Assembly (NCBI GenBank): GCA_022571985.1
Contig: JACZWU010000001.1
Coordinates: 591,501 to 655,500, forward strand
Source: Candidatus Zixiibacteriota bacterium
Lineage (GTDB): Bacteria > Zixibacteria > MSB-5A5 > GN15 > FEB-12
DNA length: 64,000 nt
Reading direction: 5' to 3'
Made by a program: the position numbers and the translations under genes. The notes beneath the pieces were generated by a model. It ran no database searches, was not told the DNA's origin, and worked only from the letters and a program-made list of their open reading frames with translations. Numbering within the stretch: position 1 is the first letter of the stretch; the number at the start of each line of letters is the position of its first letter. This document shows, one piece after another, positions 6,408 to 10,847 of this stretch.

Positions 6408-7103
6408 ATGGCTGAAATATTAGTCAAATTCGAAGACAAGCTGATCGAAAGAATTGTTACTGAGAAGAGACGTCTCTCTATCGGTCGTACCACCGATAAT
6501 GACATTGTCCTTGAAAACCGCGGAGTCTCGCGCAAGCATGCCATGATTGAATTTAATGAAAATGCGGCAGTTATCATAGACAATGAATCTCTAAACGGTA
6601 CTTTCGTCAACAACCGCAAAATCAGCGAAGAAGTTCTCCGGGATTCAGACGTTATCTCAATAGGTAAATACTCTCTCATTTACAAAACTGAAACATCTCA
6701 AGAAGCCGACGAGGCTATCAATTTCGACGGCACCATGGTTCTCAATACTAAGGCTCAAAGAAAGCTTTTGGAAAATGATAGAGTTGATAGACAGATAATT
6801 GAAAAATATGGCGGCTCAGTATTGCTTGGCGAAGAAAACGCCGATTTTCTGGAGTTCAAACTGGACCGCGAAGTTACCACCATTGGTAAGGCGAAATTTG
6901 TTCATGTAAAGGCCAAAGGTTTTTTCCTGGCCGGTATCCAGGCAAAAATTGTGCAGGAAAACAATAACTTCTCATTGGTAAACCTTGGCAAAGCTAAAAA
7001 AACAAAACTCAATGGTGAACCTGTCAGCAGAGCCCATTTGAAAAATGGGGACATCATTACCATAGGAAAATCCACTTTCAAGTTCGTTGAAGGCAGCAAA
7101 TAA
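6408..7103 (+). CDS. FHA-domain protein with a canonical and a degenerate FHA domain
   Basis: A 231-residue soluble protein. The first forkhead-associated domain (about 20-92) keeps the phosphothreonine-binding set: GRTTDND, VSRKHA and SLNGTFVN. The second (about 135-230: TTIGKAKFV, 'KLNGEPVSRAHLKNGDIITI', GKSTFKF) has the fold pattern but lacks the SxxH core, so it probably does not bind pThr in the usual way. FHA proteins dock onto Ser/Thr-kinase substrates. The gene has an AGAGGA site seven bases upstream. Its stop overlaps the next ATG by one base (TAATG), and the kinase is two genes downstream, so it is a likely partner or reader of that kinase. Confidence 0.88.
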   Translation: MAEILVKFEDKLIERIVTEKRRLSIGRTTDNDIVLENRGVSRKHAMIEFNENAAVIIDNESLNGTFVNNRKISEEVLRDSDVISIGKYSLIYKTETSQEADEAINFDGTMVLNTKAQRKLLENDRVDRQIIEKYGGSVLLGEENADFLEFKLDREVTTIGKAKFVHVKAKGFFLAGIQAKIVQENNNFSLVNLGKAKKTKLNGEPVSRAHLKNGDIITIGKSTFKFVEGSK

Positions 7104-7831
7104 TGCGTATTGCTCTGGTATCGGATGTCCATGCCAACCTCGAAGCATTAGAAGCTGTCCTTAATCATATCGAATCAGAAAACACAGACACAATTTGTAG
7201 TCTGGGTGACGTAGTAGGATATGGCAGCGACCCTTCGGCTTGCCTCGAGTTGGTCGATAAGATCTGTCAGATTAAACTTATCGGCAACCACGACTATTAC
7301 GCCCTGGGTCGGGAATCCTCAAATGACTATTCCCCCCTGGCTAAGATATCTACTGAGTGGACCAAGAAAACTTTGACGGACAAGGATGTCTCGATTCTGG
7401 ACAGTTTTACGATGGAAGAAGTAATCGAGGGAATACACCTCGTCCATGCATCACCATTTAAACCGCAAGAATTCCACTACATTTTGACCCACAAAGATGC
7501 TGCAGATGCTTTTCCCAACTGCAAAACAAACCTTTGCTTCATGGGTCATACCCATGTTCCGGTAATATTCAATGAAAAGCCGGGTCAACCGCCCCGTCAG
7601 AGGGTTGGTCACGATTTTGTACCGCAACCTGACTGCAAATATCTGATCAACGTAGGTTCGGTAGGTCAGCCCCGGGACAATGATCCCAGAGCATCTTATG
7701 TAGTTTATGATACCGAGACCAGAGACGTCTGCTATCACCGGATTGAGTATGATATCAAATCAGCTCAGAGGAAAATGGAAGAGGCCGAGCTTCCGGAAAT
7801 GCTCATAGAAAGGCTTGCCGTAGGTAAGTAA
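7103..7831 (+). CDS. Calcineurin-like metallophosphoesterase
   Basis: A 242-residue cytoplasmic protein with the full dimetal metallophosphoesterase set: D8-x-H10 (SDVHAN), GD36 (GDVVGYG), GNH63D, H115 (VHASP) and GH149TH151VP. Its length matches the single-domain YfcE/MJ0936-like group. Known members are phosphodiesterases or phosphatases with varied substrates; some act as protein or dinucleotide phosphatases. It is translationally coupled to the FHA gene (TAATG) and lies 5 bp before the CHASE2 kinase. A role in reversing kinase signalling is tempting, but the family more often acts on nucleotides, so this is inference. Bacterial eSTK operons usually carry a PP2C phosphatase, which is not seen here. 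Confidence 0.85.
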   Translation: MRIALVSDVHANLEALEAVLNHIESENTDTICSLGDVVGYGSDPSACLELVDKICQIKLIGNHDYYALGRESSNDYSPLAKISTEWTKKTLTDKDVSILDSFTMEEVIEGIHLVHASPFKPQEFHYILTHKDAADAFPNCKTNLCFMGHTHVPVIFNEKPGQPPRQRVGHDFVPQPDCKYLINVGSVGQPRDNDPRASYVVYDTETRDVCYHRIEYDIKSAQRKMEEAELPEMLIERLAVGK

Positions 7832-7836
7832 TAAAC

Positions 7837-10380
7837 GTGACTAAATATGCCTCATATATAGTTTTTCTGCTGATTTCCATTTTGGTGGCTTCTTTTTATG
7901 TTAACGGATTCGGGCCTATAGAAAGTCTCCAGAGCAGCATCAATGACAAACTTCAGAATCTGACCGCCTCGAATGAAATGGTTCAAAACGTAGTAATCGT
8001 AACAATCGACGGAGCTGCCCAGGACCAATACGGCAGCTGGCCCTGGGGTCATGACCGGATAGCAGATTTAACCGCAGCCATTGCAGGCGCCGAACCAAAA
8101 GTTATTGTGCTGGATTTTGAACTTCAGGAAAATGCTGCCCAGGAAAAAGCCGGTAATACCAAAATTTTGACAGAGCAGCTAAGCTGGATTGATAACTTAG
8201 TTATTCCCTATGATATCGCCTTAGCCACTTTCAGAAGCAGCCGCACCAGCAACCCCGATTATCTTTTTGATTATTCTTTGACGGTCAATGACCAATTAGG
8301 GCTTATGGAAGAGAATTCAAGTCTCTTAGCCCGCAAATTATTTTTACCTGCAGGTAAAGTGCTCAAGACCAGGCCCAAGCTTGGCTTTAGTTATATTATG
8401 CCGGATGATGATAGAATTTTGAGACACCAGTCGATGGTGATGAATTACGAAGGTTACTATTATCCATCGGTCGCCCTTATTGCTGCTGCTGTTTATGAAA
8501 AAGTACTGCCTGATATGGTGAAAATAACCGAAGGCCAAATTATAGAACTGGGCAGCAAGGTAACTATCCCAATAAATGAAAAAAGCGAGTTTTTCCTGAA
8601 TTTCTACAAAGAAAACCCGTTTATAAAATTTTCCGCCAGTCAGATTCTGGGTGAAGGCTTTAATTTTGGCCAGTTGGCCGGAAAAGCAGTTCTCATTACC
8701 GTTGATAAATTTGAATCTGCAGAATACTTTAAAACTCCCGTAAGCGATGAAACACCGAGACATCTGATAACTGCTACCACCTTGAGCAATCTCATAAACC
8801 GGGATATGATTACCATTGGTTTTAATTCAGTCTTGTTCAATCTGTTACTTTTGTTTTTGCTTGGCGGTATTTGCGCTTTTGTAATGCCCCAGATTTCACT
8901 CTTGTATCGCTTTGTCACACTCGGAATCGGGCTCTTCTTATTGATCAATATAAATTACTTTATGTTAAGTTCTTTCAACGTACTGGTTGAGCTATCATAT
9001 ATCGGATTGGAAATCTTCCTGTTTATGGCGGCCGCACCAATGTTAGAGACCAGCCTGGTATTGGGTGAAGAAGCCGAAGAAATCAGAAAGAAAAGAGCCA
9101 AAGAAAAAGCCAAGAAAAGAATGGAAAGACTTCGCCTTAAAGCCAAGTCTCAACCTGATGGAGCAGAAGCTGACGAACCGGTAGTAAGAGAAATTAAGGC
9201 CAGCAGCTCCGATCCTGAAAACGTGGCAACTGCTGTCCTTTCAGGAGAAGAGGTTAAAGTCACCAGCGCTATTGAGCAGGACCAGAAGGTCAAAAGCTCT
9301 CTTGGCGGTTCTACTGCCATTCCGTTTAACGATCATCAGTCGCTTAATCTGGATGGAGACGATTCCGGCGATGACCATAGCGAAGAAACCAGCGGGCTGT
9401 CACAGAAAATTAAACTCGATTCTGAACCTGAAATAATTGATCCGACGTCGCTTGACAAGGTGGCTGCAACTAACGATGAAGAAGATAGCGTTATTTTCGC
9501 TGGCAGCAATGATGGTTTTAATTCTACACCTCAGCCCGCAGACATTACGAAGCTCGGCAGGTATGAGGTTTCAGGCATTCTGGGCAAAGGCGCCATGGGC
9601 CAGGTTTACATGGGTAAAGACCCGGCTATTAACCGGCCGATTGCCTTAAAAACAATAAGACTCGACTTTGTAACAGACCCGACCGAAATGGCCGAGCTTA
9701 AAAAACGCCTGCATCTTGAAGCTCAGGCAGCCGGCCGGCTCTCTCATCCGAACATTGTGACTATTTACGACGTCGGCTCCGAAGGCGACCTGCAATATAT
9801 CGCCATGGAATATCTGGAAGGCCAGACACTGGAACAAATGATTAAGCGCAAAGTTAAATTCAACTATCGCATAATCGCGCAGATAATTGTTCAAATTTGC
9901 GCAGCTATGGACTACGCCCACAGACAGGGCATCGTCCACAGAGATATAAAACCGGCCAATATCATGATTCGCTCTGACTACCGCGTCAAAGTTATGGACT
10001 TTGGAATCGCTCGGGTGGAATCAAGCTCCATGACCAAAACTGGTATTGCCATGGGCACTCCCAACTATATTTCGCCTGAGCAGCTAAAAGGTAAGCGCGT
10101 AGATAATAAAGCTGATATATTCTCCTTAGGGGTAGTCATGTACGAGATGCTTTTAGGCAAACGGCCGTTTAAGGGCGAGAATATTACTTCACTGATCTAT
10201 TCGATAATCCATACTGAACCGGAAAAACCCTCAAGCGTCAATCCGCAGGTGCCTCTCTTGTTTGACCATATTGTTTTGCGCGCCCTGCAAAAAGACCCCA
10301 AAGACCGTTACCAGAACGCTCTGGATATAACTAATGATTTATCTGATTTTGTAGATTCGTTCAGCGCCAGAAAACATTAA
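7837..10380 (+). CDS. CHASE2-domain membrane Ser/Thr protein kinase
   Basis: An 847-residue protein starting with GTG, 5 bp after the previous stop. An N-terminal TM (about 5-23) leads to an extracytoplasmic CHASE2 sensor (about 30-325: VIVTIDGAAQDQYGSWPW, then KVIVLDFEL). Three TMs (about 335-405) and a charged linker (about 410-570) follow. The C-terminal kinase (about 575-840) has G-loop GKGAMGQVY, catalytic Lys in ALKTI, HRD at 701-703 (HRDIKPANIM), DFG at 721-723 and GTPNYISPEQ. All catalytic residues are present, so it should be active. CHASE2 is more usual on adenylate cyclases and histidine kinases, though CHASE2-STKs are known. The FHA and phosphoesterase genes upstream form one unit with it. 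The signal sensed is unknown. Confidence 0.9.
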   Translation: MTKYASYIVFLLISILVASFYVNGFGPIESLQSSINDKLQNLTASNEMVQNVVIVTIDGAAQDQYGSWPWGHDRIADLTAAIAGAEPKVIVLDFELQENAAQEKAGNTKILTEQLSWIDNLVIPYDIALATFRSSRTSNPDYLFDYSLTVNDQLGLMEENSSLLARKLFLPAGKVLKTRPKLGFSYIMPDDDRILRHQSMVMNYEGYYYPSVALIAAAVYEKVLPDMVKITEGQIIELGSKVTIPINEKSEFFLNFYKENPFIKFSASQILGEGFNFGQLAGKAVLITVDKFESAEYFKTPVSDETPRHLITATTLSNLINRDMITIGFNSVLFNLLLLFLLGGICAFVMPQISLLYRFVTLGIGLFLLININYFMLSSFNVLVELSYIGLEIFLFMAAAPMLETSLVLGEEAEEIRKKRAKEKAKKRMERLRLKAKSQPDGAEADEPVVREIKASSSDPENVATAVLSGEEVKVTSAIEQDQKVKSSLGGSTAIPFNDHQSLNLDGDDSGDDHSEETSGLSQKIKLDSEPEIIDPTSLDKVAATNDEEDSVIFAGSNDGFNSTPQPADITKLGRYEVSGILGKGAMGQVYMGKDPAINRPIALKTIRLDFVTDPTEMAELKKRLHLEAQAAGRLSHPNIVTIYDVGSEGDLQYIAMEYLEGQTLEQMIKRKVKFNYRIIAQIIVQICAAMDYAHRQGIVHRDIKPANIMIRSDYRVKVMDFGIARVESSSMTKTGIAMGTPNYISPEQLKGKRVDNKADIFSLGVVMYEMLLGKRPFKGENITSLIYSIIHTEPEKPSSVNPQVPLLFDHIVLRALQKDPKDRYQNALDITNDLSDFVDSFSARKH

Positions 10381-10394
10381 CAGAGAATCACGGA

Positions 10395-10847
10395 TTATTC
10401 TTTTTCTTTCCTGCTTGAAAGAATATCTTCGGCCAAAGACATGGCCACCCCTGACAGCATCGCCTCTACTCCCAACTTAGTGAAATCCGAAGATATCAAC
10501 TCACGGTTCATTGCGGCATAAGAAGAGCATGATGCCCCCCGCTCCACTACCAGTCCCGAAAGCCTCTCCGGAGATTCGGCCACAAAGGTAACTTCTCCAA
10601 GCTCGTCAGAGACAACATAGCCGGTGCAATTATGAAGCTGAAGATGGACATTCCCGGCATAGACAACAATCAGCATGCCCCTCCCGCGCCCCAGATCAGT
10701 CTCAGTATATATCTGAAGTGTTAAAGAGCGTCTCTCTTCTTTATTGACAACTTTGATACGATAATGATCTGTGTCGTGGATTACTTTGACTGCCCCCAAA
10801 ACAGATGCAATTTTTTCCAGATCTTTTTTCCCAAGAGCGTCGGACAT
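10395..10847 (-). CDS. Hypothetical protein, last gene of the fur-purine operon
   Basis: A 150-residue soluble protein with no signal peptide or TM. The middle looks beta-rich (YRIKVVNKEERRSLTLQIY, GMLIVVYAGNVHLQLHNC), and two Cys lie in HNCTGY and ASCSSYAA. The C-terminal ~35 residues look helical. I recognise no family. It is 9 bp downstream of tatA, so it is probably co-transcribed, and it converges on the CHASE2 kinase with 14 bp between stop codons. It could be a small regulatory or binding protein; nothing more can be supported. Confidence 0.7.
   Translation of the reverse strand: MSDALGKKDLEKIASVLGAVKVIHDTDHYRIKVVNKEERRSLTLQIYTETDLGRGRGMLIVVYAGNVHLQLHNCTGYVVSDELGEVTFVAESPERLSGLVVERGASCSSYAAMNRELISSDFTKLGVEAMLSGVAMSLAEDILSSRKEKE

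Follow-up and report, generated by a model that had tools for sequence, protein, structure and literature searches.

INTRODUCTION

GarA and OdhI, substrates of PknB or PknG, are FHA phospho-switches of 2-oxoglutarate metabolism. Both have a single FHA domain and a phosphorylatable TT motif at the N-terminus. SapH (Spr1479; 3QFM), an asymmetric Ap4A hydrolase/phosphodiesterase, has to our knowledge no kinase or FHA partner. According to PMC6733907 and Nott 2009 (via PMC8546545), GarA, OdhI and DgcB read their own phosphorylated tails. In DgcB of Bdellovibrio, which also carries a GGDEF output domain, the tail is read by the protein's FHA domain (PMC6733907). Cyanobacterial kinases of the cbSTKII class (PMC2176072) combine CHASE2 and a Hanks kinase in one protein, as does the kinase described below; this likeness is one of domain content. 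Literature searches covering open-access papers returned no description of a cassette made up of FHA protein, metallophosphoesterase (MPE) and CHASE2 kinase. The one analyzed here is a variant, as yet uncharacterised, of the kinase–phosphatase–FHA module already known.

RESULTS

Three coupled genes in a Zixibacteria genome

The window, a stretch of 64,000 nucleotides from a Zixibacteria MAG, contains the following features.

6408–7103, + strand: dual-FHA protein, 231 aa (ORF with ATG start; two Pfam FHA matches)
6726–6752, + strand: linker-motif codons D107-G-T109-M-V-L-N-T114-K115 of the FHA gene, a candidate phosphothreonine switch
7103–7831, + strand: calcineurin-like MPE, 242 aa (ATG start; Pfam Metallophos_2)
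7837–10,380, + strand: transmembrane CHASE2 Ser/Thr kinase, 847 aa (GTG start; Pfam CHASE2 and Pkinase)

The ATG of the MPE gene shares 1 base with the TAA stop of the FHA gene, and the GTG of the kinase gene begins 5 bases past the MPE stop. An earlier, sequence-only reading had named these three genes and their 1-base and 5-base junctions, and ORF and Pfam analysis reproduced both at exact coordinates. A promoter scan of the locus returned fewer sites than were seen in shuffles. The host genome has 20 Pkinase matches and one CHASE2 match, the latter being the cassette kinase. Its sole PP2C_2 match sits on another contig (C6).

Gene order is conserved across the phylum

Among the 132 genomes of the phylum, an FHA ortholog is present in 123 and the MPE in 115 (E ≤ 1e-30). 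Colinear, same-strand FHA–MPE–CHASE2 kinase genes were found at 108 of the 119 loci examined (∼83 distinct genomes), including both cassette copies of one genome, G029 (L047, L078). The FHA–MPE junction is an overlap or a gap of a few bases in all 108 colinear loci, with the largest gap being <20 bases. The MPE–kinase gap in these loci is mostly 6–23 bases, and longer in some families. Several apparent absences of the cassette are contig ends. Family f19 lacks the MPE in 7/7 genomes, and FHA and kinase genes adjoin in the 5 loci read. In family f17, a secreted FecR-domain gene is inserted between MPE and kinase; in G113, the kinase lies on a different contig from the FHA–MPE pair. Because the three-gene order recurs at 108/119 loci with short FHA–MPE junctions, it is not due to chance. 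The operon is real and conserved, and its order is ancient rather than local. Hence the proposal that the genes form a unit, to be checked by looking for the same order in relatives, was borne out within the phylum.

An invariant motif lies next to an intact FHA pocket

The first FHA domain (FHA1) spans residues ∼20–93; the second (FHA2), which is degenerate, spans ∼135–228. In FHA1, the pThr pocket residues R27, S41, R42, H44, N63 and G64 are invariant in 76/76 orthologs, giving the same pocket (R, S/R/H, N-G) as GarA and OdhI. The phosphothreonine reader postulated earlier thus has an intact pocket. FHA2 is probably no pThr reader: where the pocket Arg would be expected it mostly carries Lys, and the Ser/His signature is missing.

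Between the two domains, the motif DGTM[VI]LxT (residues 107–114) stands out from variable surrounding sequence. Mean conservation is ∼29% for linker residues 95–106 versus 88% for residues 107–115 (DGTM[VI]LxTK). G108, T109, M110 and T114 are invariant, with Thr109 and Thr114 identical in 76/76 orthologs. The residue at +3 to Thr109, a position commonly selected by FHA domains, is Leu, replaced by Met in 3 orthologs. In dual-FHA relatives from outside the phylum, T-[MI]-x-[VLM] follows FHA1 in 10/10 cases. This conserved Thr motif, which lies in the FHA protein's own linker, had been overlooked in the sequence-only reading.

For the FHA protein, AlphaFold gives a model with a mean pLDDT of 84, in which a helix (115–134) begins directly after the linker motif. 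Docking of the motif is not visible in this model because pLDDT is <50 over residues 99–109. The nearest solved FHA structures are those of GarA, OdhI and DgcB. GarA and OdhI are closest to FHA1 by sequence and fold, and they too carry a conserved Thr motif, located in a flexible stretch that adjoins their FHA domain. Unlike these single-domain proteins, the Zixibacteria protein has two FHA domains, with the motif C-terminal to FHA1, and it misses the OdhI NCBIfam cut-off (82 versus 200 bits). DgcB would be analogous in supplying its own FHA ligand, but the dual-FHA protein has no GGDEF domain. The invariant linker motif together with the intact FHA1 pocket suggests a phospho-switch resembling those of GarA, OdhI and DgcB. 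With the motif invariant, the simplest reading is that the FHA protein may act as a kinase-controlled self-switch.

The kinase is complete and covaries with the FHA protein

The kinase consists of an N-terminal TM segment (∼1–28), an extracytoplasmic CHASE2 domain (19–344), a TM cluster (∼323–400), a variable, polar cytoplasmic linker of 173 residues (401–573) and a PknB-like domain (574–835). Pfam scores are 121 bits for CHASE2 (cut-off 26.3) and 195 bits for Pkinase (cut-off 31.7). All catalytic residues had been said to be present, and indeed every Hanks catalytic motif is found (GxGAMGxV, K605, HRDIKPAN, DFG and a GTPNYISPEQ loop). With its CHASE2 domain and complete Hanks motifs, the protein is a CHASE2 Hanks-type Ser/Thr kinase. 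In the activation loop, T733 is invariant and T735 nearly so. Pairwise divergence of the FHA protein and of the kinase domain is correlated with r = 0.87, whereas correlations involving the MPE are weaker (FHA–MPE, r = 0.60; MPE–kinase, r = 0.55); all three values are raw and uncorrected for phylogeny.

It had also been suggested that FHA1 docks on the kinase linker. Comparison across species of the 75 residues preceding the kinase domain revealed no shared Thr motif. Because the linker is variable and lacks such a motif, docking at this site was rejected as a conserved feature.

The MPE fold is closer to that of SapH than to PPP phosphatases

In 71 MPE orthologs, D8, H10, D36, N62, H63, H115, H149, H151 and the segment GSVGQPRD are invariant or nearly so. 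The protein belongs to Metallophos_2 (71.4 bits, cut-off 27) and has the ligand set D-x-H, GD, GNH, H and GHxH. It is 42% identical to 3RQZ, which is uncharacterised. With the predicted structure (pLDDT 96.5) as query, Foldseek ranked 3RQZ best, followed by SapH, the nearest characterised fold, at a TM of 0.77 with weak sequence similarity (∼20% identity); PPP phosphatases gave ∼0.5. The PPP signature GDxVDRG/GNHE is absent from the MPE, which has GDVVGYG and GNHD/E instead, and scores for PrpA/PrpB-type NCBIfam models are far below cut-off. On these motifs, with GDVVGYG replacing GDxVDRG, membership of the PPP family was rejected.

PP2C takes the corresponding position in two genomes of other phyla

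Most of the genomes sampled outside the phylum contain a match to the MPE profile. At 0 of 32 out-of-phylum loci was an FHA, kinase or PP2C gene found within ∼4 kb of the MPE, and the idea that the MPE is generally kinase-linked was rejected on this count. At 16 of the 32, nusB lies beside the MPE gene or nearby, frequently together with riboflavin genes. In one family outside the phylum, f30, the MPE gene comes after a dual-FHA gene. At L139 and L143, loci of another phylum, FHA and MPE genes are likewise coupled.

Among 80 out-of-phylum genomes, picked mostly for CHASE2 matches, a full-length CHASE2 kinase was found only in G254 and G300, themselves profile rows; most CHASE2 matches outside the phylum are not Ser/Thr kinases. 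In both genomes, PP2C and dual-FHA genes lie beside the CHASE2 kinase gene (L135 and L154, respectively). These clusters share with the Zixibacteria cassette a homologous full-length CHASE2 kinase, a dual-FHA protein with a T-M linker motif and a phosphatase or phosphoesterase gene in the middle. They differ in order and in the middle gene, being kinase–PP2C–FHA rather than FHA–MPE–kinase. No description of clusters of this type was found in the literature searched. Because both out-of-phylum CHASE2 kinases sit in kinase–PP2C–dual-FHA clusters, the MPE occupies PP2C's position relative to the CHASE2-kinase clusters of other phyla. The earlier statement that a calcineurin-like enzyme takes the place of PP2C is therefore true by position, PP2C being present in the homologous cluster of two genomes from other phyla.

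None of the phylum cassettes read contains PP2C, so they are not kinase–PP2C–FHA modules. Genome searches for PP2C covered two Pfam models, PF13672 and PF00481. With these, the only match in eight families (f8, f11–f17) was a partial one in G115; the MPE is retained in nearly all. In f19, which has lost the MPE, PP2C is present in 6/7 genomes, and no extra PP2C copies compensating for the loss were seen. This complementarity fits interchangeable erasers, with few evolutionary events behind the pattern.

DISCUSSION

In our best explanation, to which as a whole we assign a probability of roughly 0.5, the cassette is a single vertically inherited signalling operon of Zixibacteria. The CHASE2 kinase would sense an envelope signal, autophosphorylate on activation-loop residues T733/T735, and then phosphorylate the dual-FHA protein at Thr109 and/or Thr114 of DGTM[VI]LxT. 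That the kinase phosphorylates the FHA protein is, we infer, fairly likely. Phosphorylated Thr109, with Leu or Met at +3, would be read by the FHA1 pocket, either of the same chain, as in GarA and OdhI, or of a partner chain, and the protein would thereby toggle between target-bound and self-bound states. We lean slightly toward the FHA protein reading its own motif. The co-translated MPE would counteract the kinase, either by dephosphorylating proteins or by removing a ligand that feeds the pathway. This mechanism is favoured by the colinear order, the invariant pocket and motif, GarA, OdhI and DgcB as nearest structures, and the motif in 10/10 relatives. Conservation of T733/T735, the FHA–kinase correlation, the invariant MPE ligands, the out-of-phylum PP2C clusters and PP2C/MPE complementarity point the same way. 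Against it stand the weak tracking of FHA and kinase by the MPE, the loss of the MPE in f19, the occurrence of the MPE family in most other phyla sampled with neither kinase nor FHA neighbours, often beside nusB and riboflavin genes, its Ap4A-hydrolase-like fold, low pLDDT at residues 99–109 of the FHA model, and the few events from which complementarity is drawn. The FHA–kinase phospho-switch is the best-supported part of the model.

The role of the MPE allows two readings, protein phosphatase and nucleotide enzyme, which we consider about equally likely. As a nucleotide enzyme, it would be a SapH-like Ap4A hydrolase or phosphodiesterase whose substrate or product feeds the pathway, and a PP2C encoded elsewhere would act as the FHA–kinase eraser. 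The fold comparison and GDVVGYG speak for this view, as do the family's widespread housekeeping contexts (nusB, riboflavin) outside the phylum and the retention of FHA, kinase and PP2C in f19 without the MPE. It is harder to square with PP2C at the corresponding position of homologous out-of-phylum cassettes, with eight families that keep the MPE and have no complete PP2C match, and with the reappearance of FHA–MPE coupling in another phylum. We place this alternative a little short of even odds. The possible eraser of the sequence-only reading survives in that PP2C holds the equivalent position elsewhere, but the missing PPP signature, the SapH-like fold and dispensability in f19 count against it, and a protein eraser remains a tentative assignment. 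It is rather unlikely that a non-PPP, SapH-like MPE replaced PP2C phylum-wide as a dedicated pThr phosphatase acting on the dual-FHA switch.

Other accounts concern the FHA protein and the gene order. FHA1 might bind the kinase at its phosphorylated activation loop, making the FHA protein a kinase-bound adaptor that does not bind itself and whose linker threonines, as substrates, would release it or recruit a third protein. The activation-loop threonines are conserved, FHA protein and kinase co-diverge, and PknB is known to recruit GarA via its activation loop (Villarino 2005, cited in PMC6213207). By itself, though, this account leaves unexplained the invariance of G108, T109, M110 and T114 and the Leu at +3, which fits an FHA ligand; we consider it somewhat less likely than not. 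Alternatively, the linker motif could be kept for structure, capping helix 115–134 and packing on FHA1, rather than for phosphorylation. It sits directly before that helix in the AlphaFold model, and its full invariance extends beyond the threonines to M110 and G108. Low pLDDT over 99–109, and retention of T-[MI]-x-[VLM] in out-of-phylum relatives though the following residues differ, make this improbable. Finally, the genes could be neighbours merely through frozen genome order, with no common pathway, and the flanking genes (ETFA and a 150-aa gene) are indeed conserved in many genomes too. But many families have lost or relocated the flanks and still keep FHA, MPE and kinase genes together, and overlapping junctions persist while the proteins diverge to 34–50% minimum identity; we give this account very little credence.

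Present in almost every sequenced Zixibacteria genome, the operon looks like an ancient bacterial phospho-switch. If the proposed mechanism is correct, the GarA-type FHA switch would not be confined to Actinobacteria and Bdellovibrio but would reach a phylum that lacks cultured models, and Thr109 offers one precise, testable residue. An MPE family known only from 3RQZ and an Ap4A-hydrolase-like fold would then gain a function, that of a Ser/Thr phosphatase whose partner kinase is known. The gains and losses of MPE versus PP2C allow a direct test of whether one signalling eraser has been replaced by a non-orthologous one, and if the MPE did replace PP2C, it would stand for a new class among the bacterial phosphoprotein phosphatases.

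Cassette genes in other settings

The genome's PP2C gene in f19, the Zixibacteria family whose cassette keeps the FHA and kinase genes without the metallophosphoesterase (MPE), lies 3' of a membrane-anchored dual-FHA gene different from that of the cassette. This FHA–PP2C pair is a module separate from the cassette (coordinates are within each locus).

L148:4009-6300, + strand: membrane-anchored dual-FHA gene, then PP2C gene

Locus L081 carries a second MPE (36% identity). Directly 3' of it lies a gene that joins a kinase to an FGE-sulfatase domain, with more kinase genes after it. This MPE–kinase pairing is an independent one.

L081:4075-10008, + strand: second MPE, fused kinase, further kinase genes

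For family f30, of another phylum, the MPE lies directly 3' of a dual-FHA gene, without a CHASE2 kinase.

L139:4538-6747, + strand: dual-FHA gene, then MPE
L143:4459-6625, + strand: dual-FHA gene, then MPE

At the non-Zixibacteria loci L155-L186, the MPE often adjoins nusB within the riboflavin cluster ribD-ribE-ribBA-ribH, a setting that neither proposed activity (protein phosphatase or nucleotide enzyme) accounts for.

Additional genes at the cassette

Convergent with the CHASE2 kinase gene is a gene whose 150-aa product has no match in Pfam or NCBIfam. Most loci of the order keep it at this place beside the kinase, as do families f5, f9, f10 and f19.

Window 10395-10847, - strand: 150-aa protein gene

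Family f5 has an additional FHA gene, shorter than the one in the cassette and lying directly upstream of it.

L097:6159-7436, - strand: second, shorter FHA gene and cassette FHA gene
L098:3292-4462, + strand: second, shorter FHA gene and cassette FHA gene

Between MPE and kinase, the f17 cassette holds a FecR-domain gene, whose secreted product is a possible extracytoplasmic partner of CHASE2.

L115:5472-6455, + strand: secreted FecR-domain gene, LysM-like N-terminus
L116:4278-5237, - strand: secreted FecR-domain gene, LysM-like N-terminus
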